Source: Crossaster papposus
Lineage: Eukaryota > Echinodermata > Asteroidea > Velatida > Solasteridae
DNA length: 64,000 nucleotides
Direction: 5' to 3'
Assembly: GCA_037893245.1 (NCBI GenBank)
Contig: JBAIAA010000117.1
Location: forward strand, 186,001-250,000
Every line of letters starts with the position of its first letter. Positions within the stretch are counted from its first letter, which is position 1. The notes under the pieces are model-generated. The model ran no database searches. It had not been told where the DNA came from and worked only from the letters and a program-made list of their open reading frames with translations. Position numbers and translations under genes: made by a program. Positions 12,076 to 57,734 of the stretch are shown one piece after another.

Positions 12076-12161
12076 CCTAACAAACACTTTTCGGGTTTTT
12101 TCACCGTCAGAACACAAAATAGACTTCCAACGCTCCTAAATGGTCTATAGAGCTCATTTAG

Positions 12162-14175: not shown

Positions 14176-14433
14176 CTTAACAAACACTTTTCGGGTTTTT
14201 TCACCGTCAGAACACAAAATAGACTTCCAACGCTCCCAAATGGTCTATAGAGCTCATTTAGCCTAACAAACACTTTTCGGGTTTTTTCACCGCCAGAACA
14301 CCAAATGGACATCCAACGCTCCCAAATGTTGTATAGTGCTCAATGAGCCTAACAAACACTTTTCGGGTTTTTTCACCGTCAGAACACAAAATAGACTTCC
14401 AAAGCTCCCAAATGGTCTATAGAGCTCATTTAG

Positions 14434-25378: not shown

Positions 25379-27664
25379 ACACTTTTCGGTTTTTTTCACC
25401 GTCAGAACACAAAATAGACTTCCAACGCTCTCAAATGGTCTATAGAGCTCATTTAGCCTAACAAACACTTTTCGGTTTTTTTCACCGCCAGAACACCAAA
25501 TGGACATCCAACGCTCCCAAATGTTGTATAGTGCTCAATGAGCCTAACAAACACTTTTCGGGTTTTTTCACCGTCAGAACACAAAATAGACTTCCAACGC
25601 TCCCAAATGGTCTATAGAGCTCATTTAGCCTAACAAACACTTTTCGGGTTTTGTTCACCATCAGAACACGAAATGGACTTCCAATACTCCCAAATGGTCG
25701 ATAGCGCTCAATAAGCGTAACAAACACTTTTCGGTTTTTCTCACCGTCAGAACACCAAATGGACATCCAACGCTCCCAAATGTTCTATAGTGCTCAATGA
25801 GCCTAACAAACACTTTTCGGGTTTTGTTCACCATCAGCTATAGGCCTCAATGAGCCTAACAAACACTTTTCGGGTTTTTTCACCGTCAGAACACAAAATT
25901 GACTTCCAACACTCCCAAATGGTCTATAGGCCTCAATGAGCCTAACAAACACTTTTCGGGTTTTCTTCACCGTCAAAACACGAAATGGACTTTCAACACT
26001 CCCAAATGGTCTATAGCGCTCAATAAGCCTAACAAACACTTTTCGAGTTTTTCCACCTTCAGAACACAAAATAGACTTCCAACGCTCCCAAATGGTCTAT
26101 AGGCCTCAATGAGCCTAACAAACACTTTTCGGGTTTTTTCACCGTCAGAACACAAAATAGACTTCCAACGCTCCCAAATGGTCTATAGAGCTCATTTAGC
26201 CTAACAAACACTTTTCGGGTTTTTTCACCGCCAGAACACCAAATGGACATCCAACGCTCCCAAATGTTGTATAGTGCTCAATGAGCCTAACAAACACTTT
26301 TCGGGTTTTTTCACCGTCAGAACACAAAATAGACTTCCAAAGCTCCCAAATGGTCTATAGAGCTCATTTAGCCTAACAAACACTTTTCGGGTTTTGTTCA
26401 CCATCAGAACACGAAATGGACTTCCAACGCTCCCAAATGGTCTATAGCGCTCAATGAGCCTAACAAACACTTTTTGGTTTTTTTCATCGTCAGAACACAA
26501 AATAGACTTCCAACGCTCCCAAATGGTCTATAGAGCTCATTTAGCCTAACAAACACTTTTCGGTTTTTTTCACCGCCAGAACACCAAATGGACATCCAAC
26601 GCTCCCAAATGTTGTATAGTGCTCAATGAGCCTAACAAACACTTTTCGGGTTTTTTCACCGTCAGAACACAAAATAGACTTCCAACGCTCCCAAATGGTC
26701 TATAGAGCTCATTTAGCCTAACAAACACTTTTCGGGTTTTGTTCACCATCAGAACACGAAATGGACTTCCAATACTCCCAAATGGTCGATAGCGCTCAAT
26801 AAGCGTAACAAACACTTTTCGGTTTTTCTCACCGTCAGAACACCAAATGGACATCCAACGCTCCCAAATGTTCTATAGTGCTCAATGAGCCTAACAAACA
26901 CTTTTCGGTTTTTTTCACCGTCAGAACACAAAATTGACTTCCAACACTCCCAAATGGTCTATAGGCCTCAATGAGCCTAACAAACACTTTTCGGGTTTTC
27001 TTCACCGTCAAAACACGAAATGGACTTTCAACACTCCCAAATGGTCTATAGCGCTCAATAAGCCTAACAAACACTTTTCGAGTTTTTCCACCTTCAGAAC
27101 ACAAAATAGACTTCCAACGCTCCCAAATGGTCTATAGGCCTCAATGAGCCTAACAAACACTTTTCGGGTTTTTTCACCGTCAGAACACAAAATAGACTTC
27201 CAACGCTCCCAAATGGTCTATAGAGCTCATTTAGCCTAACAAACACTTTTCGGTTTTTTTCACCGCCAGAACACCAAATGGACATCCAACGCTCCCAAAT
27301 GTTGTATAGTGCTCAATGAGCCTAACAAACACTTTTCGGGTTTTTTCACCGTCAGAACACAAAATAGACTTCCAAAGCTCCCAAATGGTCTATAGAGCTC
27401 ATTTAGCCTAACAAACACTTTTCGGGTTTTGTTCACCATCAGAACACGAAATGGACTTCCAACGCTCCCAAATGGTCTATAGCGCTCAATGAGCCTAACA
27501 AACACTTTTTGGGTTTTTTCACCGTCAGAACACAAAATAGACTTCCAACGCTCCCAAATGGTCTATAGAGCTCATTTAGCCTAACAAACACTTTTCGGTT
27601 TTTTTCACCGCCAGAACACCAAATGGACATCCAACGCTCCCAAATGTTGTATAGTGCTCAATGA
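25379..27664 (+). repeat. 2.3 kb block, copy of 15.6-17.9 kb
   Basis: The offset is 9767 bp. The B with CTCTCAAATGG, the J-K pair with CATCGTCAG and the D-F join without E are all conserved. An extra A-B dimer step of 172 bp lies at 25285-25456. The match ends near 27665, where CACCATCAG of an O-like unit replaces the expected B. Confidence 0.84.
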
Positions 27665-29400
27665 GCCTAACAAACACTTTTCGGGTTTTTTCACCATCAG
27701 AACACGAAATGGACTTCCAATACTCCCAAATGGTCTATAGAGCTCATTGAGCCTAACAAACACTTTTCGGTTTTTTTCACCATCAGAACACGAAATGGAC
27801 TTCCAATACTCCCAAATGGTCGATAGCGCTCAATAAGCGTAACAAACACTTTTCGGTTTTTCTCACCGTCAGAACACCAAATGGACATCCAACGCTCCCA
27901 AATGTTCTATAATGCTCAATGAGCCTAACAAACACTTTTCGGTTTTTGTTCACCATCAGCTATAGGCCTCAATGAGCCTAACAAACACTTTTCGGGTTTT
28001 TTCACCATCAGAACACAAAATTGACTTCCAACACTCCCAAATGGTCTATAGGCCTCAATGAGCCTAACAAACACTTTTCGGGTTTTCTTCACCGTCAAAA
28101 CACGAAATGGACTTCCAATACTCCCAAATGGTCGATAGCGCTCAATAAGCGTAACAAACACTTTTCGGTTTTTCTCACCGTCAGAACACCAAATGGACAT
28201 CCAACGCTCCCAAATGTTCTATAGTGCTCAATGAGCCTAACAAACACTTTTCGGGTTTTGTTCACCATCAGCTATAGGCCTCAATGAGCCTAACAAACAC
28301 TTTTCGGGTTTTTTCACCATCAGAACACAAAATTGACTTCCAACACTCCCAAATGGTCTATAGGCCTCAATGAGCCTAACAAACACTTTTCGGGTTTTCT
28401 TCACCGTCAAAACACGAAATGGACTTTCAACACTCCCAAATGGTCTATAGCGCTCAATAAGCCTAACAAACACTTTTCGAGTTTTTCCACCTTCAGAACA
28501 CAAAATAGACTTCCAACGCTCCCAAATGGTCTATAGGCCTCAATGAGCCTAACAAACACTTTTCGGGTTTTTTCACCGTCAGAACACAAAATAGACTTCC
28601 AACGCTCCCAAATGGTCTATAGAGCTCATTTAGCCTAACAAACACTTTTCGGTTTTTTTCACCGCCAGAACACCAAATGGACATCCAACGCTCCCAAATG
28701 TTGTATAGTGCTCAATGAGCCTAACAAACACTTTTCGGGTTTTTTCACCGTCAGAACACAAAATAGACTTCCAAAGCTCCCAAATGGTCTATAGAGCTCA
28801 TTTAGCCTAACAAACACTTTTCGGGTTTTGTTCACCATCAGAACACGAAATGGACTTCCAACGCTCCCAAATGGTCTATAGCGCTCAATGAGCCTAACAA
28901 ACACTTTTTGGGTTTTTTCACCGTCAGAACACAAAATAGACTTCCAACGCTCCCAAATGGTCTATAGAGCTCATTTAGCCTAACAAACACTTTTCGGTTT
29001 TTTTCACCGCCAGAACACCAAATGGACATCCAACGCTCCCAAATGTTGTATAGTGCTCAATGAGCCTAACAAACACTTTTCGGGTTTTTTCACCATCAGA
29101 ACACGAAATGGACTTCCAATACTCCCAAATGGTCTATAGAGCTCATTGAGCCTAACAAACACTTTTCGGTTTTTTTCACCATCAGAACACGAAATGGACT
29201 TCCAATACTCCCAAATGGTCGATAGCGCTCAATAAGCGTAACAAACACTTTTCGGTTTTTCTCACCGTCAGAACACCAAATGGACATCCAACGCTCCCAA
29301 ATGTTCTATAATGCTCAATGAGCCTAACAAACACTTTTCGGTTTTTGTTCACCATCAGCTATAGGCCTCAATGAGCCTAACAAACACTTTTCGGGTTTTT
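27665..29400 (+). repeat. 1399-bp tandem repeat, partial second round
   Basis: From about 26.93 kb the order recurs 1399 bp further on, up to about 29.40 kb. Shared features are O-C-D' without M or N, then an E with CGGTTTTTGTTCACC near 27940 and 29340. The first round contains the G/C hybrid 28063-28149. Confidence 0.8.
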
Positions 29401-32400
29401 TCACCCTCAGAACACAAAATAGACTTCCAACGCTCACAAATGGTCTATAGGCCTCAATGAGCCTAACAAACACTTTTCGGGTTTTTTCACCGTCAGAACA
29501 CAAAATAGACTTCCAACGCTCCCAAATGGTCTATAGAGCTCATTTAAGCCTAACAAACACTTTTCGGTTTTTTTCACCGCCAGAACACCAAATGGACATC
29601 CAACGCTCCCAAATGTTGTATAGTGCTCAATGAGCCTAACAAACACTTTTCGGGTTTTTTCACCGTCAGAACACAAAATAGACTTCCAACGCTCCTAAAT
29701 GGTCTATAGAGCTCATTTAGCCTAACAAACACTTTTCGGGTTTTGTTCACCATCAGAACACGAAATGGACTTCCAATACTCCCAAATGGTCGATAGCGCT
29801 CAATAAGCGTAACAAACACTTTTCGGTTTTTCTCACCGTCAGAACACCAAATGGACATCCAACGCTCCCAAATGTTCTATAGTGCTCAATGAGCCTAACA
29901 AACACTTTTCGGTTTTTTTCACCGTCAGAACACAAAATTGACTTCCAACACTCCCAAATGGTCTATAGGCCTCAATGAGCCTAACAAACACTTTTCGGGT
30001 TTTCTTCACCGTCAAAACACGAAATGGACTTTCAACACTCCCAAATGGTCTATAGCGCTCAATAAGCCTAACAAACACTTTTCGGGTTTTTCCACCTTCA
30101 GAACACAAAATAGACTTCCAACGCTCCCAAATGGTCTATAGGCCTCAATGAGCCTAACAAACACTTTTCGGGTTTTTTCACCGTCAGAACACAAAATAGA
30201 CTTCCAACGCTCCCAAATGGTCTATAGAGCTCATTTAGCCTAACAAACACTTTTCGGTTTTTTTCACCGCCAGAACACCAAATGGACATCCAACGCTCCC
30301 AAATGTTGTATAGTGCTCAATGAGCCTAACAAACACTTTTCGGGTTTTTTCACCGTCAGAACACAAAATAGACTTCCAAAGCTCCCAAATGGTCTATAGA
30401 GCTCATTTAGCCTAACAAACACTTTTCGGGTTTTGTTCACCATCAGAACACGAAATGGACTTCCAATACTCCCAAATGGTCGATAGCGCTCAATAAGCGT
30501 AACAAACACTTTTCGGTTTTTCTCACCGTCAGAACACCAAATGGACTTCCAACGCTCCCAAATGGTCTATAGCGCTCATTTAGCCTAACAAACACTTTTC
30601 GGTTTTTTTTCACCGTCAGAACACCAAATGGACTTCCAACACTCCCAAACGGTCTATAGGCCTCAATGAGCCTAACAAACACTTTTCAAGTTTTTTCACC
30701 GTCAGAACACAAAATAGACTTCCAACGCTCCCAAATGGTCTATAGAGCTCATTTAGCCTAACAAACCCTTTTCGGGTTTTTTTCACCATCAGAACACGAA
30801 ATGGACTTCAAAATACTCCCAAATGGTCTATAGAGCTCATTGAGCCTAACAAACACTTTTCGGTTTTTTTCACCATCAGAACACGAAATGGACTTCCAAT
30901 ACTCCCAAATGGTCGATAGCGCTCAATAAGCGTAACAAACACTTTTCGGTTTTTCTCACCGTCAGAACACCAAATGGACATCCAACGCTCCCAAATGTTC
31001 TATAATGCTCAATGAGCCTAACAAACACTTTTCGGTTTTTGTTCACCATCAGCTATAGGCCTCAATGAGCCTAACAAACACTTTTCGGGTTTTTTCACCC
31101 TCAGAACACAAAATTGACTTCCAACACTCCCAAATGGTCTATAGGCCTCAATGAGCCTAACAAACACTTTTCGGGTTTTCTTCACCGTCAAAACACGAAA
31201 TGGACTTTCAACACTCCCAAATGGTCTATAGCGCTCAATAAGCCTAACAAACACTTTTCGGGTTTTTCCACCTTCAGAACACAAAATAGACTTCCAACGC
31301 TCACAAATGGTCTATAGGCCTCAATGAGCCTAACAAACACTTTTCGGGGTTTTTCACCGTCAGAACACAAAATAGACTTCCAACGCTCCCAAATGGTCTA
31401 TAGAGCTCATTTAAGCCTAACAAACACTTTTCGGTTTTTTTCACCGCCAGAACACCAAATGGACATCCAACGCTCCCAAATGTTGTATAGTGCTCAATGA
31501 GCCTAACAAACACTTTTCGGGTTTTTTCACCGTCAGAACACAAAATAGACTTCCAACGCTCCTAAATGGTCTATAGAGCTCATTTAGCCTAACAAACACT
31601 TTTCGGGTTTTGTTCACCATCAGAACACGAAATGGACTTCCAACGCTCCCAAATGGTAGCGCTCAATGAGCCTAACAAACAGTTTTCGGGTTTTTTCACT
31701 ATCAGCTATAGGCCTCAATGAGCCTAACAAACACTTTTCGGGTTTTTTCACCGTCAGAACACCAAATGGACATCCAACGCTCCCAAATGTTCTATAATGC
31801 TCAATGAGCCTAAAAAACACTTTTCGGTTTTTGTTCACCATCAGCTATAGGCCTCAATGAGCCTAACAAACACTTTTCGGGTTTTTTCACCCTCAGAACA
31901 CAAAATTAACTTCCAACACTCCCAAATGGTCTATAGGCCTCAATGAGCCTAACAAACACTTTTCGGGTTTTCTTCACCGTCAAAACACGAAATGGACTTT
32001 CAACACTCCCAAATGGTCTATAGCGCTCAATAAGCCTAACAAACACTTTTCGGGTTTTTCCACCTTCAGAACACAAAATAGACTTCCAACGCTCACAAAT
32101 GGTCTATAGGCCTCAATGAGCCTAACAAACACTTTTCGGTTTTTTCACCGTCAGAACACAAAATAGACTTCCAACGCTCCCAAATGGTCTATAGAGCTCA
32201 TTTAAGCCTAACAAACACTTTTCGGTTTTTTTCACCGCCAGAACACCAAATGGACATCCAACGCTCCCAAATGTTGTATAGTGCTCAATGAGCCTAACAA
32301 ACACTTTTCGGGTTTTTTCACCGTCAGAACACAAAATAGACTTCCAACGCTCCTAAATGGTCTATAGAGCTCATTTAGCCTAACAAACACTTTTCGGGTT

Positions 32401-34585
32401 TTGTTCACCATCAGAACACGAAATGGACTTCCTATACTCCCAAATGGTCGATAGCGCTCAATAAGCGTAACAAACACTTTTCGGTTTTTCTCACCGTCAG
32501 AACACCAAATGGACATCCAACGCTCCCAAATGTTCTATAGTGCTCAATGAGCCTAACAAACACTTTTCGGTTTTTTTCACCGTCAGAACACAAAATTGAC
32601 TTCCAACACTCCAAATGGTCTATAGGCCTCAATGAGCCTAACAAACACTTTTCGGGTTTTCTTCACCGTCAAAACACGAAATGGACTTTCAACACTCCCA
32701 AATGGTCTATAGCGCTCAATAAGCCTAACAAACACTTTTCGGGTTTTTCCACCTTCAGAACACAAAATAGACTTCCAACGCTCCCAAATGGTCTATAGGC
32801 CTCAATGAGCCTAACAAACACTTTTCGGTTTTTTCACCGTCAGAACACAAAATAGACTTCCAACGCTCCCAAATGGTCTATAGAGCTCATTTAGCCTAAC
32901 AAACACTTTTCGGTTTTTTTCACCGCCAGAACACCAAATGGACATCCAACGCTCCCAAATGTTGTATAGTGCTCAATGAGCCTAACAAACACTTTTCGGT
33001 TTTTTTTCACCGTCAGAACACAAAATAGACTTCCAAAGCTCCCAAATGGTCTATAGAGCTCATTTAGCCTAACAAACACTTTTCGGGTTTTGTTCACCAT
33101 CAGAACACGAAATGGACTTCCAACGCTCCCAAATGGTCTATAGCGCTCAATGAGCCTAACAAACACTTTTTGGGTTTTTTCACCGTCAGAACACAAAATA
33201 GACTTCCAACGCTCCCAAATGGTCTATAGAGCTCATTTAGCCTAACAAACACTTTTCGGTTTTTTTCACCGCCAGAACACCAAATGGACATCCAACGCTC
33301 CCAAATGTTGTATAGTGCTCAATGAGCCTAACAAACACTTTTCGGGTTTTTTCACCGTCAGAACACAAAATAGACTTCCAACGCTCCCAAATGGTCTATA
33401 GAGCTCATTTAGCCTAACAAACACTTTTCGGGTTTTGTTCACCATCAGAACACGAAATGACTTCCAATACTCCCAAATGGTCGATAGCGCTCAATAAGCG
33501 TAACAAACACTTTTCGGTTTTTCTCACCGTCAGAACACCAAATGGACTTCCAACGCTCCCAAATGGTCTATAGCGCTCATTTAGCCTAACAAACACTTTT
33601 CGGTTTTTTTTCACCGTCAGAACACCAATGGACTTCCAACACTCCCAAACGGTCTATAGGCCTCAATGAGCCTAACAAACACTTTTCAAGTTTTTTCACC
33701 GTCAGAACACAAAATAGACTTCCAACGCTCCCAAATGGTCTATAGAGCTCATTTAGCCTAACAAACCCTTTTCGGGTTTTTTTCACCATCAGAACACGAA
33801 ATGGACTTCCAATACTCCCAAATGGTCTATAGAGCTCATTGAGCCTAACAAACACTTTTCGGTTTTTTCACCATCAGAACACGAAATGGACTTCCAATAC
33901 TCCCAAATGGTCGATAGCGCTCAATAAGCGTAACAAACACTTTTCGGTTTTTCTCACCGTCAGAACACCAAATGGACATCCAACGCTCCCAAATGTTCTA
34001 TAATGCTCAATGAGCCTAACAAACACTTTTCGGTTTTTGTTCACCATCAGCTATAGGCCTCAATGAGCCTAACAAACACTTTTCGGGTTTTTTCACCCTC
34101 AGAACACAAAATTGACTTCCAACACTCCCAAATGGTCTATAGGCCTCAATGAGCCTAACAAACACTTTTCGGGTTTTCTTCACCGTCAAAACACGAAATG
34201 GACTTTCAACACTCCCAAATGGTCTATAGCGCTCAATAAGCCTAACAAACACTTTTCGGGTTTTTCCACCTTCAGAACACAAAATAGACTTCCAACGCTC
34301 ACAAATGGTCTATAGGCCTCAATGAGCCTAACAAACACTTTTCGGGTTTTTTCACCGTCAGAACACAAAATAGACTTCCAACGCTCCCAAATGGTCTATA
34401 GAGCTCATTTAAGCCTAACAAACACTTTTCGGTTTTTTTCACCGCCAGAACACCAAATGGACATCCAACGCTCCCAAATGTTGTATAGTGCTCAATGAGC
34501 CTAACAAACACTTTTCGGGTTTTTTCACCGTCAGAACACAAAATAGACTTCCAACGCTCCTAAATGGTCTATAGAGCTCATTTAG
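29401..34585 (+). repeat. Mosaic long-HOR segment rich in private indels
   Basis: The segment contains pieces of the 32-unit HOR in altered order. It holds the first copies of the CATTTAAG insertion mark (near 29545, 31411, 32203, 34410) and of the AAACAGTTTTCGG / CACTATCAG marks (near 31680). Between 30.8 and 33.9 kb there are several one-base losses or gains not seen in other copies. Only satellite is present; no unique sequence. Confidence 0.8.
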
Positions 34586-37242
34586 CCTAACAAACACTTT
34601 TCGGGTTTTGTTCACCATCAGAACACGAAATGGACTTCCAACGCTCCCAAATGGTAGCGCTCAATGAGCCTAACAAACAGTTTTCGGGTTTTTTCACTAT
34701 CAGCTATAGGCCTCAATGAGCCTAACAAACACTTTTCGGGTTTTTTCACCGTCAGAACACAAAATAGACTTCCAACGCTCTCAAATGGTCTATAGAGCTC
34801 ATTTAGCCTAACAAACACTTTTCGGTTTTTTTCACCGCCAGAACACCAAATGGACATCCAACGCTCCCAAATGTTGTATAGTGCTCAATGAGCCTAACAA
34901 ACACTTTTCGGGTTTTTTCACCGTCAGAACACAAAATAGACTTCCAACGCTCCCAAATGGTCTATAGAGCTCATTTAGCCTAACAAACACTTTTCGGGTT
35001 TTGTTCACCATCAGAACACGAAATGGACTTCCAATACTCCCAAATGGTCGATAGCGCTCAATAAGCGTAACAAACACTTTTCGGTTTTTCTCACCGTCAG
35101 AACACCAAATGGACATCCAACGCTCCCAAATGTTCTATAGTGCTCAATGAGCCTAACAAACACTTTTCGGGTTTTGTTCACCATCAGCTATAGGCCTCAA
35201 TGAGCCTAACAAACACTTTTCGGGTTTTTTCACCATCAGAACACAAAATTGACTTCCAACACTCCCAAATGGTCTATAGGCCTCAATGAGCCTAACAAAC
35301 ACTTTTCGGGTTTTCTTCACCGTCAAAACACGAAATGGACTTTCAACACTCCCAAATGGTCTATAGCGCTCAATAAGCCTAACAAACACTTTTCGAGTTT
35401 TTCCACCTTCAGAACACAAAATAGACTTCCAACGCTCCCAAATGGTCTATAGGCCTCAATGAGCCTAACAAACACTTTTCGGGTTTTTTCACCGTCAGAA
35501 CACAAAATAGACTTCCAACGCTCCCAAATGGTCTATAGAGCTCATTTAGCCTAACAAACACTTTTCGGTTTTTTTCACCGCCAGAACACCAAATGGACAT
35601 CCAACGCTCCCAAATGTTGTATAGTGCTCAATGAGCCTAACAAACACTTTTCGGGTTTTTTCACCGTCAGAACACAAAATAGACTTCCAAAGCTCCCAAA
35701 TGGTCTATAGAGCTCATTTAGCCTAACAAACACTTTTCGGGTTTTGTTCACCATCAGAACACGAAATGGACTTCCAACGCTCCCAAATGGTCTATAGCGC
35801 TCAATGAGCCTAACAAACACTTTTTGGGTTTTTTCACCGTCAGAACACAAAATAGACTTCCAACGCTCCCAAATGGTCTATAGAGCTCATTTAGCCTAAC
35901 AAACACTTTTCGGTTTTTTTCACCGCCAGAACACCAAATGGACATCCAACGCTCCCAAATGTTGTATAGTGCTCAATGAGCCTAACAAACACTTTTCGGG
36001 TTTTTTCACCGTCAGAACACAAAATAGACTTCCAACGCTCCCAAATGGTCTATAGAGCTCATTTAGCCTAACAAACACTTTTCGGGTTTTGTTCACCATC
36101 AGAACACGAAATGGACTTCCAATACTCCCAAATGGTCGATAGCGCTCAATAAGCGTAACAAACACTTTTCGGTTTTTCTCACCGTCAGAACACCAAATGG
36201 ACTTCCAACGCTCCCAAATGGTCTATAGCGCTCATTTAGCCTAACAAACACTTTTCGGTTTTTTTTCACCGTCAGAACACCAAATGGACTTCCAACACTC
36301 CCAAACGGTCTATAGGCCTCAATGAGCCTAACAAACACTTTTCAAGTTTTTTCACCGTCAGAACACAAAATAGACTTCCAACGCTCCCAAATGGTCTATA
36401 GAGCTCATTTAGCCTAACAAACCCTTTTCGGGTTTTTTTCACCATCAGAACACGAAATGGACTTCCAATACTCCCAAATGGTCTATAGAGCTCATTGAGC
36501 CTAACAAACACTTTTCGGTTTTTTTCACCATCAGAACACGAAATGGACTTCCAATACTCCCAAATGGTCGATAGCGCTCAATAAGCGTAACAAACACTTT
36601 TCGGTTTTTCTCACCGTCAGAACACCAAATGGACATCCAACGCTCCCAAATGTTCTATAATGCTCAATGAGCCTAACAAACACTTTTCGGTTTTTGTTCA
36701 CCATCAGCTATAGGCCTCAATGAGCCTAACAAACACTTTTCGGGTTTTTTCACCCTCAGAACACAAAATTGACTTCCAACACTCCCAAATGGTCTATAGG
36801 CCTCAATGAGCCTAACAAACACTTTTCGGGTTTTCTTCACCGTCAAAACACGAAATGGACTTTCAACACTCCCAAATGGTCTATAGCGCTCAATAAGCCT
36901 AACAAACACTTTTCGGGTTTTTCCACCTTCAGAACACAAAATAGACTTCCAACGCTCACAAATGGTCTATAGGCCTCAATGAGCCTAACAAACACTTTTC
37001 GGGTTTTTTCACCGTCAGAACACAAAATAGACTTCCAACGCTCCCAAATGGTCTATAGAGCTCATTTAAGCCTAACAAACACTTTTCGGTTTTTTTCACC
37101 GCCAGAACACCAAATGGACATCCAACGCTCCCAAATGTTGTATAGTGCTCAATGAGCCTAACAAACACTTTTCGGGTTTTTTCACCGTCAGAACACAAAA
37201 TAGACTTCCAACGCTCCTAAATGGTCTATAGAGCTCATTTAG
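34586..37242 (+). repeat. 2657-bp HOR, copy 1 (32 subunits)
   Basis: The order is I-E-B, then A-B-C-D-E-F-G-H-B-A-B-J-B-A-B (1260 bp), then C-L-M-N-O-C-D'-E-F-G-H-B-A-B (1176 bp). The lengths add exactly to 2657. Marks are CAAACAGTTTTCGG and CACTATCAG in the I-E join and CATTTAAG at 36984-37070. This is the longest HOR whose whole order I could read in two full copies. Confidence 0.92.
36154..36499 (+). repeat. Satellite monomers types L, M, N and O
   Basis: L (36154-36239) joins a D-like leader to GACTTCC and the tail AGCGCTCATTTAG. M (36240-36326) has eight T and CCCAAACGGTCTATAGG. N (36327-36412) has CTTTTCAAGTTTTTTC. O (36413-36499) starts CCTAACAAACCCTTTTC and ends AGAGCTCATTGAG. These four occur as a block in the long HOR family, near 6, 19.8, 30.6, 33.6, 36.2, 37.6, 40.3, 47.4, 50.5, 53.3, 58.7 and 60.5 kb, though several copies are incomplete. 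Confidence 0.9.
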
Positions 37243-38639
37243 CCTAACAAACACTTTTCGGGTTTTGTTCACCATCAGAACACGAAATGGACTTCCAACG
37301 CTCCCAAATGGTAGCGCTCAATGAGCCTAACAAACAGTTTTCGGGTTTTTTCACTATCAGCTATAGGCCTCAATGAGCCTAACAAACACTTTTCGGGTTT
37401 TTTCACCGTCAGAACACAAAATAGACTTCCAACGCTCCCAAATGGTCTATAGAGCTCATTTAGCCTAACAAACACTTTTCGGGTTTTGTTCACCATCAGA
37501 ACACGAAATGGACTTCCAATACTCCCAAATGGTCGATAGCGCTCAATAAGCGTAACAAACACTTTTCGGTTTTTCTCACCGTCAGAACACCAAATGGACT
37601 TCCAACGCTCCCAAATGGTCTATAGCGCTCATTTAGCCTAACAAACACTTTTCGGTTTTTTTTCACCGTCAGAACACCAAATGGACTTCCAACACTCCCA
37701 AACGGTCTATAGGCCTCAATGAGCCTAACAAACACTTTTCAAGTTTTTTCACCGTCAGAACACAAAATAGACTTCCAACGCTCCCAAATGGTCTATAGAG
37801 CTCATTTAGCCTAACAAACCCTTTTCGGGTTTTTTTCACCATCAGAACACGAAATGGACTTCCAATACTCCCAAATGGTCTATAGAGCTCATTGAGCCTA
37901 ACAAACACTTTTCGGTTTTTTTCACCATCAGAACACGAAATGGACTTCCAATACTCCCAAATGGTCGATAGCGCTCAATAAGCGTAACAAACACTTTTCG
38001 GTTTTTCTCACCGTCAGAACACCAAATGGACATCCAACGCTCCCAAATGTTCTATAATGCTCAATGAGCCTAACAAACACTTTTCGGTTTTTGTTCACCA
38101 TCAGCTATAGGCCTCAATGAGCCTAACAAACACTTTTCGGGTTTTTTCACCCTCAGAACACAAAATTGACTTCCAACACTCCCAAATGGTCTATAGGCCT
38201 CAATGAGCCTAACAAACACTTTTCGGGTTTTCTTCACCGTCAAAACACGAAATGGACTTTCAACACTCCCAAATGGTCTATAGCGCTCAATAAGCCTAAC
38301 AAACACTTTTCGGGTTTTTCCACCTTCAGAACACAAAATAGACTTCCAACGCTCACAAATGGTCTATAGGCCTCAATGAGCCTAACAAACACTTTTCGGG
38401 TTTTTTCACCGTCAGAACACAAAATAGACTTCCAACGCTCCCAAATGGTCTATAGAGCTCATTTAAGCCTAACAAACACTTTTCGGTTTTTTTCACCGCC
38501 AGAACACCAAATGGACATCCAACGCTCCCAAATGTTGTATAGTGCTCAATGAGCCTAACAAACACTTTTCGGGTTTTTTCACCGTCAGAACACAAAATAG
38601 ACTTCCAACGCTCCTAAATGGTCTATAGAGCTCATTTAG
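37243..38639 (+). repeat. 1397-bp deletion derivative of the 2657-bp HOR (17 subunits)
   Basis: The order is I-E-B followed directly by C-L-M-N-O-C-D'-E-F-G-H-B-A-B. Relative to the flanking 2657-bp copies it lacks exactly 15 subunits, or 1260 bp. The surviving B reads CGCTCCCAAATGG, not the CTCTCAAATGG normally found third. The exchange therefore joined the start of one B to the body of the B before C. Confidence 0.92.
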
Positions 38640-41296
38640 CCTAACAAACACTTTTCGGGTTTTGTTCACCATCAGAACACGAAATGGACTTCCAACGCTC
38701 CCAAATGGTAGCGCTCAATGAGCCTAACAAACAGTTTTCGGGTTTTTTCACTATCAGCTATAGGCCTCAATGAGCCTAACAAACACTTTTCGGGTTTTTT
38801 CACCGTCAGAACACAAAATAGACTTCCAACGCTCTCAAATGGTCTATAGAGCTCATTTAGCCTAACAAACACTTTTCGGTTTTTTTCACCGCCAGAACAC
38901 CAAATGGACATCCAACGCTCCCAAATGTTGTATAGTGCTCAATGAGCCTAACAAACACTTTTCGGGTTTTTTCACCGTCAGAACACAAAATAGACTTCCA
39001 ACGCTCCCAAATGGTCTATAGAGCTCATTTAGCCTAACAAACACTTTTCGGGTTTTGTTCACCATCAGAACACGAAATGGACTTCCAATACTCCCAAATG
39101 GTCGATAGCGCTCAATAAGCGTAACAAACACTTTTCGGTTTTTCTCACCGTCAGAACACCAAATGGACATCCAACGCTCCCAAATGTTCTATAGTGCTCA
39201 ATGAGCCTAACAAACACTTTTCGGGTTTTGTTCACCATCAGCTATAGGCCTCAATGAGCCTAACAAACACTTTTCGGGTTTTTTCACCATCAGAACACAA
39301 AATTGACTTCCAACACTCCCAAATGGTCTATAGGCCTCAATGAGCCTAACAAACACTTTTCGGGTTTTCTTCACCGTCAAAACACGAAATGGACTTTCAA
39401 CACTCCCAAATGGTCTATAGCGCTCAATAAGCCTAACAAACACTTTTCGAGTTTTTCCACCTTCAGAACACAAAATAGACTTCCAACGCTCCCAAATGGT
39501 CTATAGGCCTCAATGAGCCTAACAAACACTTTTCGGGTTTTTTCACCGTCAGAACACAAAATAGACTTCCAACGCTCCCAAATGGTCTATAGAGCTCATT
39601 TAGCCTAACAAACACTTTTCGGTTTTTTTCACCGCCAGAACACCAAATGGACATCCAACGCTCCCAAATGTTGTATAGTGCTCAATGAGCCTAACAAACA
39701 CTTTTCGGGTTTTTTCACCGTCAGAACACAAAATAGACTTCCAAAGCTCCCAAATGGTCTATAGAGCTCATTTAGCCTAACAAACACTTTTCGGGTTTTG
39801 TTCACCATCAGAACACGAAATGGACTTCCAACGCTCCCAAATGGTCTATAGCGCTCAATGAGCCTAACAAACACTTTTTGGGTTTTTTCACCGTCAGAAC
39901 ACAAAATAGACTTCCAACGCTCCCAAATGGTCTATAGAGCTCATTTAGCCTAACAAACACTTTTCGGTTTTTTTCACCGCCAGAACACCAAATGGACATC
40001 CAACGCTCCCAAATGTTGTATAGTGCTCAATGAGCCTAACAAACACTTTTCGGGTTTTTTCACCGTCAGAACACAAAATAGACTTCCAACGCTCCCAAAT
40101 GGTCTATAGAGCTCATTTAGCCTAACAAACACTTTTCGGGTTTTGTTCACCATCAGAACACGAAATGGACTTCCAATACTCCCAAATGGTCGATAGCGCT
40201 CAATAAGCGTAACAAACACTTTTCGGTTTTTCTCACCGTCAGAACACCAAATGGACTTCCAACGCTCCCAAATGGTCTATAGCGCTCATTTAGCCTAACA
40301 AACACTTTTCGGTTTTTTTTCACCGTCAGAACACCAAATGGACTTCCAACACTCCCAAACGGTCTATAGGCCTCAATGAGCCTAACAAACACTTTTCAAG
40401 TTTTTTCACCGTCAGAACACAAAATAGACTTCCAACGCTCCCAAATGGTCTATAGAGCTCATTTAGCCTAACAAACCCTTTTCGGGTTTTTTTCACCATC
40501 AGAACACGAAATGGACTTCCAATACTCCCAAATGGTCTATAGAGCTCATTGAGCCTAACAAACACTTTTCGGTTTTTTTCACCATCAGAACACGAAATGG
40601 ACTTCCAATACTCCCAAATGGTCGATAGCGCTCAATAAGCGTAACAAACACTTTTCGGTTTTTCTCACCGTCAGAACACCAAATGGACATCCAACGCTCC
40701 CAAATGTTCTATAATGCTCAATGAGCCTAACAAACACTTTTCGGTTTTTGTTCACCATCAGCTATAGGCCTCAATGAGCCTAACAAACACTTTTCGGGTT
40801 TTTTCACCCTCAGAACACAAAATTGACTTCCAACACTCCCAAATGGTCTATAGGCCTCAATGAGCCTAACAAACACTTTTCGGGTTTTCTTCACCGTCAA
40901 AACACGAAATGGACTTTCAACACTCCCAAATGGTCTATAGCGCTCAATAAGCCTAACAAACACTTTTCGGGTTTTTCCACCTTCAGAACACAAAATAGAC
41001 TTCCAACGCTCACAAATGGTCTATAGGCCTCAATGAGCCTAACAAACACTTTTCGGGTTTTTTCACCGTCAGAACACAAAATAGACTTCCAACGCTCCCA
41101 AATGGTCTATAGAGCTCATTTAAGCCTAACAAACACTTTTCGGTTTTTTTCACCGCCAGAACACCAAATGGACATCCAACGCTCCCAAATGTTGTATAGT
41201 GCTCAATGAGCCTAACAAACACTTTTCGGGTTTTTTCACCGTCAGAACACAAAATAGACTTCCAACGCTCCTAAATGGTCTATAGAGCTCATTTAG
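38640..41296 (+). repeat. 2657-bp HOR, copy 2 (32 subunits)
   Basis: It has the same order as 34586-37242 at an offset of 4054 bp, with near identity by eye. The CATTTAAG insertion lies near 41121. Confidence 0.92.
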
Positions 41297-43036
41297 CCTA
41301 ACAAACACTTTTCGGGTTTTGTTCACCATCAGAACACGAAATGGACTTCCAACGCTCCCAAATGGTAGCGCTCAATGAGCCTAACAAACAGTTTTCGGGT
41401 TTTTTCACTATCAGCTATAGGCCTCAATGAGCCTAACAAACACTTTTCGGGTTTTTTCACCGTCAGAACACAAAATAGACTTCCAACGCTCTCAAATGGT
41501 CTATAGAGCTCATTTAGCCTAACAAACACTTTTCGGTTTTTTTCACCGCCAGAACACCAAATGGACATCCAACGCTCCCAAATGTTGTATAGTGCTCAAT
41601 GAGCCTAACAAACACTTTTCGGGTTTTTTCACCGTCAGAACACAAAATAGACTTCCAACGCTCCCAAATGGTCTATAGAGCTCATTTAGCCTAACAAACA
41701 CTTTTCGGGTTTTGTTCACCATCAGAACACGAAATGGACTTCCAATACTCCCAAATGGTCGATAGCGCTCAATAAGCGTAACAAACACTTTTCGGTTTTT
41801 CTCACCGTCAGAACACCAAATGGACATCCAACGCTCCCAAATGTTCTATAGTGCTCAATGAGCCTAACAAACACTTTTCGGGTTTTGTTCACCATCAGCT
41901 ATAGGCCTCAATGAGCCTAACAAACACTTTTCGGGTTTTTTCACCGTCAGAACACAAAATTGACTTCCAACACTCCCAAATGGTCTATAGGCCTCAATGA
42001 GCCTAACAAACACTTTTCGGGTTTTCTTCACCGTCAAAACACGAAATGGACTTTCAACACTCCCAAATGGTCTATAGCGCTCAATAAGCCTAACAAACAC
42101 TTTTCGAGTTTTTCCACCTTCAGAACACAAAATAGACTTCCAACGCTCCCAAATGGTCTATAGGCCTCAATGAGCCTAACAAACACTTTTCGGGTTTTTT
42201 CACCGTCAGAACACAAAATAGACTTCCAACGCTCCCAAATGGTCTATAGAGCTCATTTAGCCTAACAAACACTTTTCGGTTTTTTTCACCGCCAGAACAC
42301 CAAATGGACATCCAACGCTCCCAAATGTTGTATAGTGCTCAATGAGCCTAACAAACACTTTTCGGGTTTTTTCACCGTCAGAACACAAAATAGACTTCCA
42401 AAGCTCCCAAATGGTCTATAGAGCTCATTTAGCCTAACAAACACTTTTCGGGTTTTGTTCACCATCAGAACACGAAATGGACTTCCAACGCTCCCAAATG
42501 GTCTATAGCGCTCAATGAGCCTAACAAACACTTTTTGGTTTTTTTCATCGTCAGAACACAAAATAGACTTCCAACGCTCCCAAATGGTCTATAGAGCTCA
42601 TTTAGCCTAACAAACACTTTTCGGTTTTTTTCACCGCCAGAACACCAAATGGACATCCAACGCTCCCAAATGTTGTATAGTGCTCAATGAGCCTAACAAA
42701 CACTTTTCGGGTTTTTTCACCGTCAGAACACAAAATAGACTTCCAACGCTCCCAAATGGTCTATAGAGCTCATTTAGCCTAACAAACACTTTTCGGGTTT
42801 TGTTCACCATCAGAACACGAAATGGACTTCCAATACTCCCAAATGGTCGATAGCGCTCAATAAGCGTAACAAACACTTTTCGGTTTTTCTCACCGTCAGA
42901 ACACCAAATGGACATCCAACGCTCCCAAATGTTCTATAGTGCTCAATGAGCCTAACAAACACTTTTCGGTTTTTTTCACCGTCAGAACACAAAATTGACT
43001 TCCAACACTCCCAAATGGTCTATAGGCCTCAATGAG
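41297..43036 (+). repeat. Start of a third HOR copy with the D-F variant
   Basis: It opens I-E-B-A-B-C-D-E-F-G-H-B-A-B like the copies before it, but continues J-K-A-B-C-D-F as in the 2171-bp HOR. It is thus a mix of the two HOR families. It ends at the G/B hybrid 43037-43123. It is repeated at 51341 onward (offset 10044). Confidence 0.86.
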
Positions 43037-44073
43037 CCTAACAAACACTTTTCGGGTTTTCTTCACCGTCAAAACACAAAATAGACTTCCAACGCTCCCA
43101 AATGGTCTATAGAGCTCATTTAGCCTAACAAACACTTTTCGGGTTTTGTTCACCGCCAGAACACCAAATGGACATCCAACGCTCCCAAATGTTGTATAGT
43201 GCTCAATGAGCCTAACAAACACTTTTCGGGTTTTTTCACCGTCAGAACACAAAATAGACTTCCAAAGCTCCCAAATGGTCTATAGAGCTCATTTAGCCTA
43301 ACAAACACTTTTCGGGTTTTGTTCACCATCAGAACACGAAATGGACTTCCAACGCTCCCAAATGGTCTATAGCGCTTAATGAGCCTAACAAACACTTTTT
43401 GGTTTTTTTCACCGTCAGAACACAAAATAGACTTCCAACGCTCCCAAATGGTCTATAGAGCTCATTTAGCCTAACAAACACTTTTTGGTTTTTCTTCACC
43501 GTCAAAACACGAAATGGACTTTCAACACTCCCAAATGGTCTATAGCGCTCAATAAGCCTAACAAACACTTTTCGGGTTTTTCCACCTTCAGAACACAAAA
43601 TAGACTTCCAACGCTCCCAAATGGTCTATAGGCCTCAATGAGCCTAACAAACACTTTTCGGGTTTTTTCACCGTCAGAACACAAAATAGACTTCCAACGC
43701 TCCCAAATGGTCTATAGAGCTCATTTAGCCTAACAAACACTTTTCGGTTTTTTTCACCGCCAGAACACCAAATGGACATCCAACGCTCTCAAATGTTGTA
43801 TAGTGCTCAATGAGCCTAACAAACACTTTTCGGGTTTTTTCACCGTCAGAACACAAAATAGACTTCCAACGCTCCCAAATGGTCTATAGAGCTCATTTAG
43901 CCTAACAAACACTTTTCGGGTTTTGTTCACCATCAGAACACGAAATGGACTTCCAATACTCCCAAATGGTCGATAGCGCTCAATAAGCGTAACAAACACT
44001 TTTCGGTTTTTCTCACCGTCAGAACACCAAATGGACATCCAACGCTCCCAAATGTTCTATAGTGCTCAATGAG
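43037..44073 (+). repeat. Shuffled segment with hybrid monomers
   Basis: A G/B hybrid (43037-43123) and a C/A hybrid (43124-43210) are followed by B, J and K-like units, then a unit near 43470 that passes from CTTTTTGG into a G-type TTTTTCTTCACC leader. The J near 43370 has AGCGCTTAATGAG. The segment recurs at 55.5 kb (offset 12403). Confidence 0.8.
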
Positions 44074-46010
44074 CCTAACAAACACTTTTCGGGTTTTGTT
44101 CACCATCAGCTATAGGCCTCAATGAGCCTAACAAACACTTTTCGGGTTTTTTCACCGTCAGAACACAAAATTGACTTCCAACACTCCCAAATGGTCTATA
44201 GGCCTCAATGAGCCTAACAAACACTTTTCGGGTTTTCTTCACCGTCAAAACACGAAATGGACTTTCAACACTCCCAAATGGTCTATAGCGCTCAATAAGC
44301 CTAACAAACACTTTTCGAGTTTTTCCACCTTCAGAACACAAAATAGACTTCCAACGCTCTCAAATGGTCTATAGGCCTCAATGAGCCTAACAAACACTTT
44401 TCGGGTTTTTTTCACCGTCAGAACACAAAATAGACTTCCAACGCTCCCAAATGGTCTATAGAGCTCATTTAGCCTAACAAACACTTTTCGGTTTTTTTCA
44501 CCGCCAGAACACCAAATGGACATCCAACGCTCCCAAATGTTGTATAGTGCTCAATGAGCCTAACAAACACTTTTCGGGTTTTTTCACCGTCAGAACACAA
44601 AATAGACTTCCAAAGCTCCCAAATGGTCTATAGAGCTCATTTAGCCTAACAAACACTTTTCGGGTTTTGTTCACCATCAGAACACGAAATGGACTTCCAA
44701 CGCTCCCAAATGGTCTATAGCGCTCAATGAGCCTAACAAACACTTTTTGGTTTTTTTCATCGTCAGAACACAAAATAGACTTCCAACGCTCCCAAATGGT
44801 CTATAGAGATCATTTAGCCTAACAAACACTTTTCGGTTTTTTTTCACCGCCAGAACACCAAATGGACATCCAACGCTCCCAAATGTTGTATAGTGCTCAA
44901 TGAGCCTAACAAACACTTTTCGGGTTTTTTCACCGTCAGAACACAAAATAGACTTCCAACGCTCCCAAATGGTCTATAGAGCTCATTTAGCCTAACAAAC
45001 ACTTTTCGGGTTTTGTTCACCATCAGAACACGAAATGGACTTCCAATACTCCCAAATGGTCGATAGCGCTCAATAAGCGTAACAAACACTTTTCGGTTTT
45101 TCTCACCGTCAGAACACCAAATGGACATCCAACGCTCCCAAATGTTCTATAGTGCTCAATGAGCCTAACAAACACTTTTCGGGTTTTGTTCACCATCAGC
45201 TATAGGCCTCAATGAGCCTAACAAACACTTTTCGGGTTTTTTCACCGTCAGAACACAAAATTGACTTCCAACACTCCCAAATGGTCTATAGGCCTCAATG
45301 AGCCTAACAAACACTTTTCGGGTTTTCTTCACCGTCAAAACACGAAATGGACTTTCAACACTCCCAAATGGTCTATAGCGCTCAATAAGCCTAACAAACA
45401 CTTTTCGAGTTTTTCCACCTTCAGAACACAAAATAGACTTCCAACGCTCCCAAATGGTCTATAGGCCTCAATGAGCCTAACAAACACTTTTCGGGTTTTT
45501 TCACCGTCAGAACACAAAATAGACTTCCAACGCTCCCAAATGGTCTATAGAGCTCATTTAGCCTAACAAACACTTTTCGGTTTTTTTCACCGCCAGAACA
45601 CCAAATGGACATCCAACGCTCCCAAATGTTGTATAGTGCTCAATGAGCCTAACAAACACTTTTCGGGTTTTTTCACCGTCAGAACACAAAATAGACTTCC
45701 AAAGCTCCCAAATGGTCTATAGAGCTCATTTAGCCTAACAAACACTTTTCGGGTTTTGTTCACCATCAGAACACGAAATGGACTTCCAACGCTCCCAAAT
45801 GGTCTATAGCGCTCAATGAGCCTAACAAACACTTTTTGGTTTTTTTCATCGTCAGAACACAAAATAGACTTCCAACGCTCCCAAATGGTCTATAGAGATC
45901 ATTTAGCCTAACAAACACTTTTCGGTTTTTTTCACCGCCAGAACACCAAATGGACATCCAACGCTCCCAAATGTTGTATAGTGCTCAATGAGCCTAACAA
46001 ACACTTTTCG
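44074..46010 (+). repeat. 1090-bp tandem repeat (13 subunits)
   Basis: The order is E-F-G-H-B-A-B-J-K-A-B-C-D at 44074-45163. It starts again at 45164 and departs near 46.0 kb. Both rounds share AGAGATCATTTAG in the K unit (near 44810 and 45895), a base change not seen elsewhere. This confirms recent tandem duplication. Confidence 0.87.
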
Positions 46011-47164
46011 GGTTTTTTCACCGTCAGAACACAAAATAGACTTCCAAAGCTCCCAAATGGTCTATAGAGCTCATTTAGCCTAACAAACACTTTTCGGGTT
46101 TTTTCACCGCCAGAACACCAAATGGACATCCAACGCTCCCAAATGGTCTATAGAGCTCATTTAGCCTAACAAACACTTTTCGGGTTTTGTTCACCATCAG
46201 AACACGAAATGGACTTCCAATACTCCCAAATGGTCGATAGCGCTCAATAAGCGTAACAAACACTTTTCGGTTTTTCTCACCGTCAGAACACCAAATGGAC
46301 ATCCAACGCTCCCAAATGTTCTATAGTGCTCAATGAGCCTAACAAACACTTTTTGGTTTTTTTCACCGTCAGAACACAAAATTGACTTCCAACACTCCCA
46401 AATGGTCTATAGGCCTCAATGAGCCTAACAAACACTTTTCGGGTTTTCTTCACCGTCAAAACACAAAATAGACTTCCAACGCTCCCAAATGGTCTATAGA
46501 GCTCATTTAGCCTAACAAACACTTTTCGGGTTTTGTTCACCGCCAGAACACCAAATGGACATCCAACGCTCCCAAATGTTGTATAGTGCTCAATGAGCCT
46601 AACAAACACTTTTCGGGTTTTTTCACCGTCAGAACACAAAATAGACTTCCAAAGCTCCCAAATGGTCTATAGAGCTCATTTAGCCTAACAAACACTTTTC
46701 GGGTTTTGTTCACCATCAGAACACGAAATGGACTTCCAACACTCCCAAATGGTCTATAGCGCTCAATAAGCCTAACAAACACTTTTCGGGTTTTTCCACC
46801 TTCAGAACACAAAATAGACTTCCAACGCTCCCAAATGGTCTATAGGCCTCAATGAGCCTAACAAACACTTTTCGGGTTTTGTTCACCATCAGAACACGAA
46901 ATGGACTTCCAACGCTCCCAAATGGTCTATAGCGCTCAATGAGCCTAACAAACACTTTTCGGTTTTTTTCACCATCAGCTATAGGCCTCAATGAGCCTAA
47001 CAAACACTTTTCGGGTTTTTTCACCGTCGGAACACAAAATAGACTTCCAACGCTCCTAAATGGTCTATAGAGCTCATTTAGCCTAACAAACACTTTTCGG
47101 GTTTTGTTCACCATCAGAACACGAAATGGACTTCCAACGCTCCCAAATGGTAGCGCTCAATGAG
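46011..47164 (+). repeat. Mosaic segment
   Basis: It contains the A/B hybrid 46079-46164, then C-D-F, a second copy of the G/B and C/A hybrids (about 46.45-46.6 kb, offset 3387 from 43.06 kb), J, H, E and B units, and an I unit at 47082-47164. Nothing other than satellite is present. Confidence 0.78.
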
Positions 47165-48600
47165 CCTAACAAACACTTTCCGGTTTTTCTCACCGTCAAA
47201 ACACGAAATGGACTTTCAACACTCCCAAATGGTCTATAGCGCTTAATAAGCCTAACAAACACTTTTCGGTTTTTTTCACCGTCAGAACACAAATTAGACT
47301 TCCAACGCTCCCAAATGGTCTATAGCGCTCATTTAGCCTAACAAACACTTTTCGGTTTTTTTTCACAGTCAGAACACCAAATGGACTTCCAACACTCCCA
47401 AACGGTCTATAGGCCTCAATGAGCCTAACAAACACTTTTCAAGTTTTTTCACCGTCAGAACACAAAATAGACTTCCAACGCTCCCAAATGGTCTATAGAG
47501 CTCATTTAGCCTAAAAAACCCTTTTCGGGTTTTTTTCACCATCAGAACACGAAATGGACTTCCAATACTCCCAAATGGTCTATAGAGCTCATTGAGCCTA
47601 ACAAACACTTTTCGGTTTTTTTCACCATCAGAACACGAAATGGACTTCCAATACTCCCAAATGGTCGATAGCGCTCAATAAGCGTAACAAACACTTTTCG
47701 GTTTTTCTCACCGTCAGAACACCAAATGGACATCCAACGCTCCCAAATGTTCTATAATACTCAATGAGCCTAACAAACACTTTTCGGGTTTTGTTCACCA
47801 TCAGCTATAGGCCTCAATGAGCCTAACAAACACTTTTCGGTTTTTTTCACCCTCAGAACACAAAATTGACTTCCAACACTCCCAAATGGTCTATAGGCCT
47901 CAATGAGCCTAACAAACACTTTTCGGGTTTTCTTCACCGTCAAAACACGAAATGGACTTTCAACACTCCCAAATGGTCTGTAGCGCTCAATAAGCCTAAC
48001 AAACACTTTTCGGGTTTTTCCACCTTCAGAACACAAAATAGACTTCCAACGCTCACAAATGGTCTATAGGCCTCAATGAGCCTAACAAACACTTTTCGGG
48101 TTTTTTCACCGTCAGAACACAAAATAGACTTCCAACGCTCCCAAATGGTCTATAGAGCTCATTTAGCCTAACAAACACTTTTCGGTTTTTTTCACCGCCA
48201 GAACACCAAATGGACATCCAACGCTCCCAAATGTTGTATAGTGCTCAATGAGCCTAACAAACACTTTTCGGGTTTTTTCACCGTCAGAACACAAAATAGA
48301 CTTCCAACGCTCCTAAATGGTCTATAGAGCTCATTTAGCCTAACAAACACTTTTCGGGTTTTGTTCACCATCAGAACACGAAATGGACTTCCAACGCTCC
48401 CAAATGGTAGCGCTCAATGAGCCTAACAAACACTTTTCGGTTTTTTTCACCATCAGCTATAGGCCTCAATTAGCCTAACAAACACTTTTCGGGTTTTTTC
48501 ACCGTCAGAACACAAAATAGACTTCCAACGCTCCCAAATGGTCTATAGAGCTCATTTAGCCTAACAAACACTTTTCGGTTTTTGTCACCGCCAGAACACC
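47165..48600 (+). repeat. Copy of 5.9-7.0 kb with a chimeric start
   Basis: The first unit (47165-47250) joins a D-like leader with CACTTTCCGG to the G core and the tail GCGCTTAATAAG; the same chimera follows the I unit at 56616-56698. From about 47.3 to 48.2 kb the order matches 5.9-6.8 kb (offset 41378). A private change near 47988 reads GGTCTGTAG. Confidence 0.8.
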
Positions 48601-49388
48601 AAATGGACATCCAACGCTCCCAAATGTTGTATAGTGCTCAATGAGCCTAACAAACACTTTTCGGGTTTTTTCACCGTCAGAACACAAAATAGACTTCCAA
48701 CGCTCCCAAATGGTCTATAGAGCTCATTTAGCCTAACAAACACTTTTCGGTTTTTTTCACCGCCAGAACACCAAATGGACATCCAACGCTCCCAAATGTT
48801 GTATAGTGCTCAATGAGCCTAACAAACACTTTTCGGGTTTTGTTCACCATCAGAACACGAAATGGACTTCCAATACTCCCAAATGGTCGATAGCGCTCAA
48901 TAAGCGTAACAAACACTTTTCGGTTTTTCTCACCGTCAGAACACCAAATGGACATCCAACGCTCCCAAATGTTCTATAGTGCTCAATGAGCCTAACAAAC
49001 ACTTTTCGGGTTTTGTTCACCATCAGCTATAGGCCTCAATGAGCCTAACAAACACTTTTCGGGTTTTTTCACCGTCAGAACACAAAATTGACTTCCAACA
49101 CTCCCAAATGGTCTATAGGCCTCAATGAGCCTAACAAACACTTTTCGGGTTTTCTTCACCGTCAAAACACGAAATGGACTTTCAACACTCCCAAATGGTC
49201 TATAGCGCTCAATAAGCCTAACAAACACTTTTCGAGTTTTTCCACCTTCAGAACACAAAATAGACTTCCAACGCTCCCAAATGGTCTATAGGCCTCAATG
49301 AGCCTAACAAACACTTTTCGGGTTTTTTCACCGTCAGAACACAAAATAGACTTCCAACGCTCCCAAATGGTCTATAGAGCTCATTTAG

Positions 49389-50078
49389 CCTAACAAACAC
49401 TTTTCGGTTTTTTTCACCGCCAGAACACCAAATGGACATCCAACGCTCCCAAATGTTGTATAGTGCTCAATGAGCCTAACAAACACTTTTCGGGTTTTTT
49501 CACCGTCAGAACACAAAATAGACTTCCAAAGCTCCCAAATGGTCTATAGAGCTCATTTAGCCTAACAAACACTTTTCGGGTTTTGTTCACCATCAGAACA
49601 CGAAATGGACTTCCAACGCTCCCAAATGGTCTATAGCGCTCAATGAGCCTAACAAACACTTTTTGGGTTTTTTCACCGTCAGAACACAAAATAGACTTCC
49701 AACGCTCCCAAATGGTCTATAGAGCTCATTTAGCCTAACAAACACTTTTCGGTTTTTTTCACCGCCAGAACACCAAATGGACATCCAACGCTCCCAAATG
49801 TTGTATAGTGCTCAATGAGCCTAACAAACACTTTTCGGGTTTTTTCACCGTCAGAACACAAAATAGACTTCCAAAGCTCCCAAATGGTCTATAGAGCTCA
49901 TTTAGCCTAACAAACACTTTTCGGGTTTTGTTCACCATCAGAACACGAAATGGACTTCCAACGCTCCCAAATGGTCTATAGCGCTCAATGAGCCTAACAA
50001 ACACTTTTTGGGTTTTTTCACCGTCAGAACACAAAATAGACTTCCAACGCTCCCAAATGGTCTATAGAGCTCATTTAG
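49389..50078 (+). repeat. 345-bp tandem duplication (A-B-J-B twice)
   Basis: The two rounds, 49389-49733 and 49734-50078, each equal 86+86+87+86 bp. Other copies of this neighbourhood (35.55 and 39.6 kb) have only one round, so the duplication is local. Upstream, 48601-49388 is ordinary B-A-C-D-E-F-G-H-B satellite. Confidence 0.9.
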
Positions 50079-57044: not shown

Positions 57045-57734
57045 CCTAACAAACACTTTTCGGTTTTTTTCACCGCCAGAACACCAAATGGACATCCAAC
57101 GCTCCCAAATGTTGTATAGTGCTCAATGAGCCTAACAAACACTTTTCGGGTTTTTTCACCGTCAGAACACAAAATAGACTTCCAAAGCTCCCAAATGGTC
57201 TATAGAGCTCATTTAGCCTAACAAACACTTTTCGGGTTTTGTTCACCATCAGAACACGAAATGGACTTCCAACGCTCCCAAATGGTCTATAGCGCTCAAT
57301 GAGCCTAACAAACACTTTTTGGGTTTTTTCACCGTCAGAACACAAAATAGACTTCCAACGCTCCCAAATGGTCTATAGAGCTCATTTAGCCTAACAAACA
57401 CTTTTCGGTTTTTTTCACCGCCAGAACACCAAATGGACATCCAACGCTCCCAAATGTTGTATAGTGCTCAATGAGCCTAACAAACACTTTTCGGGTTTTT
57501 TCACCGTCAGAACACAAAATAGACTTCCAAAGCTCCCAAATGGTCTATAGAGCTCATTTAGCCTAACAAACACTTTTCGGGTTTTGTTCACCATCAGAAC
57601 ACGAAATGGACTTCCAACGCTCCCAAATGGTCTATAGCGCTCAATGAGCCTAACAAACACTTTTTGGTTTTTTTCACCGTCAGAACACAAAATAGACTTC
57701 CAACGCTCCAAAATGGTCTATAGAGCTCATTTAG
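57045..57734 (+). repeat. 345-bp tandem duplication, second locus
   Basis: A-B-J-B rounds lie at 57045-57389 and 57390-57734. The second round ends in CTTTTTGGTTTTTTTC and CTCCAAAATGG rather than CTTTTTGGG, so the two rounds have different sources or have been partly converted. Confidence 0.85.

Follow-up and report, generated by a model that had tools for sequence, protein, structure and literature searches.

A duplicated 32-unit block in a centromere-like satellite array of the sea star Crossaster papposus

Higher-order satellite arrays are best known in primates. A stretch of 64 kb from the sea star Crossaster papposus (contig JBAIAA010000117.1, hereafter C117, positions 186001-250000; the window) is made up of an 86-bp satellite, in which an initial annotation had described a higher-order repeat (HOR) of 32 subunits and 2657 bp. 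This locus raises the question of whether such a block is the repeat unit of the whole array or a local product of the array's own shuffling. Here, the window was decomposed into monomers, further loci of C117 and other contigs were sampled, and marker sequences were counted over the whole genome assembly (1.02 Gb, 1841 contigs). The reading favored here, with a probability of about 0.7, is that the block records a very young local duplication in a long satellite array of a single orientation, which resembles the centromere of one echinoderm chromosome and would have been shaped by unequal exchange.

Monomers were called by anchoring on a conserved core; 771 anchors delimited 770 units in the window, which were grouped into types by average linkage at 4 edits (21 clusters, 14 of them, named A to N, with at least 10 copies). 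From core to core the block reads FHGABAJC, ABADEC and FHGABAIABADNMLKDEC (653 + 484 + 1520 bp), that is, 32 units of 14 types in which A recurs eight times, B four times, and C and D three times each. Unit lengths are 86 bp (20 units), 87 bp (eight), 53 bp (two), 52 bp (one) and 83 bp (one), and sum exactly to 2657 bp, so that the number, sum and mixed lengths of the subunits were as the initial annotation had given them. Its figure of about 15 monomer types is close to the 14 found here, a count that varies with the clustering cut (31 types with at least 5 copies at cut 2, and 13 at cut 5). The annotation had also reported two copies with the same monomer order, and this holds down to the base: 34586-37242 and 38640-41296, both of 2657 bp, show no mismatch. 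The exact repeat in fact exceeds the length reported, extending over 3575 bp at a lag of 4054 (33863-37437 and 37917-41491). Self-comparison of 34051-41296 gave the two diagonals that had been anticipated, with scores of 1.000 at lag 4054 and 0.613 at lag 2657; at the latter lag the window has four exact runs longer than 250 bp (918, 1920, 592 and 365 bp). The features of the window, all on the forward strand, are the following.

1..64000, + strand: 86-bp satellite array made of 770 units from core to core (69-63936), all head to tail with a single orientation
33863..37437, + strand: first arm of the exact 3575-bp direct repeat, lag 4054
34066..36722, + strand: full 32-unit block, copy 1 (in the other phase, 34586-37242), from type string and base identity
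34584..34718, + strand: type J (83 bp, 4 bp deleted) and directly after it type C (52 bp, 34 bp deleted), carrying local marker bases, from sequence comparison
36723..38119, + strand: shortened copy, FHGABAJC plus ADNMLKDEC, 17 units, 1397 bp, from prefix and suffix comparison with the full block
37917..41491, + strand: second arm of the exact 3575-bp direct repeat
38120..40776, + strand: full 32-unit block, copy 2 (in the other phase, 38640-41296), identical to copy 1, from base identity
40777..44109, + strand: next stretch, which starts like the block (FHGABAJC ABADEC FHGABAIABADE) and then diverges from its order, from type string

The likeness of the two copies goes far beyond that of arbitrary segments, the comparison on which the initial annotation had staked its claim. 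Whereas the copies are identical (1.000), monomers of different types within the block share a mean identity of 0.890 (n = 365 pairs), and 300 random, non-overlapping pairs of 32-unit segments from the window averaged 0.850, with a maximum of 0.920 and none at or above 0.99. The order of types is likewise repeated over long distances: the longest repeated type string comprises 50 units, compared with a mean of 5.7 and a maximum of 9 in 500 shuffles.

The full copies are not adjacent, the layout being full, shortened, full. The shortened copy shares with the full block a prefix of 715 bp and a suffix of 751 bp, together 1466 bp and hence 69 more than its own 1397 bp. It corresponds to the full block minus 1260 bp, or 15 whole units, with a join that is ambiguous across 69 bp common to two type-A monomers. 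Such an in-phase loss of 15 units, joined within 69 identical bases, is the expected residue of unequal exchange in register. An assembly artefact, in which the exact 3575-bp repeat was mis-joined or duplicated, could also produce arms without a single difference, all the more as repeat arrays are the hardest sequences to assemble and both C117 and another contig, C139, break inside the array. However, the two arms have different flanks and the intervening shortened copy is distinct, so that the layout requires three different copies, and a stretch of 7.6 kb would be within reach of one ordinary long read. An artefact is therefore considered highly improbable, and the duplication is taken here as real.

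Whether the 32-mer extends beyond this locus was assessed in the window and in 13 other 10-kb array samples of C117, which together with the window cover about 114 kb of the 344-kb young domain described below. The full 32-mer was found twice in the 770 units of the window and in none of the 13 samples. Two markers of the block gave 11 and 12 matches genome-wide, all of them at C117:215-240 kb and 328-344 kb, and the spacing of 2657 bp occurred only in the first of these clusters, twice; the 37-mer of the type C variant, with 11 matches, had seven of them in the window. Elsewhere the same monomer types are arranged with other local periods, namely 3793 bp at C117:1-10000 and 3801 bp at C117:300001-310000, others being weaker. 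The absence from the samples, the confinement of the markers and the differing periods led to the rejection of an array-wide period of 2657 bp. The 32-mer is not the commonest n-mer repeated in tandem throughout the array, as a canonical HOR unit would be. It could still be argued that it is the true unit of the chromosome and that the window is a degraded stretch of it, given that two full copies are identical, that its segments FHGABAJC and ABADEC occur 16 and 17 times in the window, and that strings of 20-43 units recur at many lags; in view of the three observations above, this appears very unlikely. Repeated type strings of 20 to 50 units were found at lags of 1.1 to 54 kb, with the same types in other orders, and the 32-mer looks like a local product of the usual shuffling of the array rather than a fixed unit. 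The block markers seen at C117:217-240 kb recur about 100 kb away at 328-344 kb, with a spacing of 2877 bp common to both places, which is a sign of a longer-range duplication within the array.

The monomers themselves carry traces of the same kind of change. The 770 units comprise 139 distinct sequences, of 86 bp (487 units), 87 bp (184), 53 bp (44), 52 bp (30), 83 bp (19) and other lengths (six). The irregularity noted in the initial annotation is real, and is simply explained: 87-bp units have one base more, located in the T-run region in seven of the eight 87-bp units of the block and present as an extra A at the end in the remaining one; type J is type I minus 4 bp; and type C has 34 bp deleted. 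Type C was found in 11 of the 13 C117 samples with satellite and was missing from the two diverged ones (750-760 and 800-810 kb), and for this reason appears to be a derived form. Among the nine rare monomer variants examined (types O-U), seven are exact two-parent hybrids, in which the first part comes from one common type and the rest from a second, which supports unequal exchange.

The following course of events can be proposed. Sister chromatids or homologues would align in a shifted register by way of near-identical monomers, and break-induced copying or unequal exchange inside monomers would leave runs of units duplicated, deleted and rejoined in phase. One such event may have generated the 4054-bp repeat with its exact 3575-bp arm, and another may have deleted 15 whole units lying between two type-A monomers to give the 1397-bp copy; the 32-mer would then be a cascading-type HOR that has so far reached just two copies. 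The ends of repeated type strings were examined for preferred break points. Among 193 maximal repeated strings of at least 12 units, 10 (0.05) end in C, compared with 0.012 (s.d. 0.015) in 60 second-order simulations; 0.66 end in A (0.664 simulated), 0.29 begin with A (0.528 simulated), and 0.26 begin with C, an observed value that stands by itself. These data support no conclusion on type C as a preferred break point.

The extent of the array was followed along C117 and beyond. Satellite was present in 13 of twenty 10-kb samples of C117, covering 1-810 kb and all on the + strand; three samples (2.0, 3.0 and 4.3 Mb) had no satellite core, and all four from 850 to 1010 kb contained a different, 63-bp tandem repeat. 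The right edge lies between 815 kb, where the last match of an edge marker is found, and 850 kb, and C117 starts inside the array. On C139 (842,130 bp) no satellite was found at 1, 200 and 400 kb, and satellite was found at 480 kb, at 560 kb and at the contig end. Because the last 400 bp of C139, which ends within the array, are those of C117:2640-3039, a single array is probably split between the two contigs. Its assembled length would be about 1.2 Mb, made up of 362-442 kb on C139 and 815-850 kb on C117, minus any overlap.

Along this length the array is long and homogeneous, with a younger core and a diverged edge. The mean number of edits to the nearest window variant was 0.06-0.46 at five loci between 0 and 310 kb of C117, 1.15-1.71 at six loci between 400 and 710 kb, and 4.73-5.14 at two loci between 750 and 810 kb. 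Markers follow the same domains: that of type K had 76 matches genome-wide, 49 at C117:2407-343123 and 27 at C139:491581-834952; that of the second domain had 96, of which 88 lie at C117:380320-773259, seven at C139:601419-656570 and one at C117:35264; and all 10 matches of the edge marker lie at C117:721884-815286. For type J, the 100 matches listed out of 241 are all on C117. An edge-type variant of C139 (C139:480001-480400) matched twice on C139 and twice on another contig, C1206 (C1206:209521-215880), and nowhere else. This pattern is that of a young core flanked by older sequence, which was sampled well on the right and thinly on the left.

Similar exchange processes would operate in non-centromeric heterochromatin or in a telomere-proximal block, and the distribution of the family bears on this alternative. 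A 23-base core of the satellite had 28,170 forward and 20,862 reverse exact matches genome-wide (49,032 in all), and a diverged branch was found inside contig C2 (422001-432000 and 500001-510000), on the minus strand and at 11-14 edits per unit from the window types. From these counts and the density of the core in the sampled C117 loci (2.5 to 6.6 per kb), a very rough estimate suggests that related satellite makes up about 7 to 20 Mb, or about 1-2% of the genome. With the family so dispersed, its presence alone is no mark of a centromere. The array on C117 is nevertheless more than 1 Mb long and points the same way in every one of the 13 satellite samples, with a young center, a diverged edge and an adjoining second satellite, an arrangement that matches active human arrays as they are reviewed in the relevant part of PMC9859433. 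A non-centromeric block is on balance judged unlikely, and the centromere-like array remains the preferred reading.

Several points weigh against it. The array could be non-centromeric heterochromatin, its centromere role being putative, and the layout of the block is known from the assembly alone. The mirror order on C139 is drawn from two marker patterns and six 400-bp samples, and strays fall outside the simple order of domains, a K-type match at C139:491581 and the second-domain match at C117:35264. Markov simulations of orders 1, 2 and 3 (300 each) reached repeated strings of 31, 39 and 44 units; since chains of types alone can yield such strings, type order is weaker evidence than base identity. 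In the hybrid analysis, one of 12 main types also scored as a hybrid, in a control set that was not distance-matched. Finally, the CENP-B box (NTTCGNNNNANNCGGGN) had no strict match on either strand of the window, and with up to two substitutions it had none on the + strand and one on the - strand; this absence is compatible with a centromere and does not exclude one.

Comparison with known HORs helps to place the block. In a Willard-type HOR every monomer of the unit is of a different type, whereas in a cascading HOR some types recur within the canonical copy, as these terms are used in the part of PMC11050224 drawn on here. With 32 units of 14 types the block is not of the former kind; it shows the recurrence of the latter, although a canonical, that is commonest, copy is lacking. 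The claim of a HOR accordingly holds in the general sense that an ordered block of diverged monomers was duplicated, and not in the sense of a unit that builds up a long HOR array. Judged from sequence, the nearest class would be a local cascading-type HOR in a centromere-like satellite, of a kind already known. The cascading HORs of primate alpha satellite described in that part of PMC11050224 resemble the block in their recurring types (15 monomers of nine types there) and in the many variant copies that lack whole units; they differ in numbering 429 copies, 65% of them canonical, against two copies here, and the 86-bp satellite of the window is unrelated to alpha satellite. The initial annotation had regarded the repeat as unusually long, which does not stand up to published primate units: a 33mer is described for human chromosome 21 (PMC6718397), and 58mer and 59mer units are reported for orangutan (PMC12428378, PMC11276891). 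The number of monomers per unit is similar in these cases, whereas the monomers measure 171 bp rather than 86 bp, so that alpha-satellite units are longer in bases. Layered human centromere arrays, as presented in the part of PMC9859433 referred to above, share with the array a young higher-order core, a diverged edge satellite and an adjoining second family; here this layering is seen from sequence alone, and its left edge consists of six 400-bp pieces. Among the papers listed in searches of the open-access literature, none dealt with higher-order satellite repeats in echinoderms or sea stars, which does not show that none is in print.

In such DNA a single block in two copies is nothing unusual, and the whole array is the more interesting object. 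It can be tentatively proposed, with a chance a little short of even, that a layered echinoderm satellite centromere re-joins an alphabet of about 14 types so fast that it is ordered at a higher level but has no canonical unit. If the array proves to be an echinoderm centromere, primate-style layering and block turnover would extend to a distant deuterostome. The very young events found here, i.e. the 3575-bp duplication, the 15-unit deletion and the hybrid monomers, let change in the array be followed stepwise, and, if exact copies and hybrids are upheld in reads, the array would document individual exchange events in an organism that is neither a primate nor a plant.

Minor observations concern coding potential and other contigs. 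A coding reading of the satellite was rejected, stops being frequent in all six frames of C117:1-10000 (130 to 204 per frame, the longest open stretch being 109 codons), and no Rfam match was found in 33800-41500. The second tandem repeat, sampled over C117:850001-1010000, has a period of 63-66 bp (GGCTCCAGATGTGGCAATATTCCACC...) and forward frames open for up to 521 codons. Among its length variants many are divisible by three, but stop codons abound and the reading frame drifts; the repeat is not coding at present and may have descended from a coding repeat. In the diverged satellite branch at C2:422001-432000, anchors are separated by regular gaps of 175 bp. The mitochondrial COX1 (contig C1841) has an open frame under codes that translate AAA as Asn, which yields the conserved start TNHKDIG; this is the echinoderm code (table 9), and table 14 opens the frame as well. 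A sequence resembling tRNA-Pro, recognized by eye, is found on the minus strand immediately ahead of COX1, the gene order of sea stars; ARAGORN called no tRNA in the mitochondrial piece. The mitochondrial sequence thus indicates an echinoderm, probably a sea star. Contig C8 (2.87, 5.21, 4.24 and 1.59 Mb) contains a bacterial-type COX1, matched in three stretches, and sequences that match bacterial SSU rRNA with scores of 823 and 560 bits; it is probably the chromosome of a bacterial companion included in the assembly.

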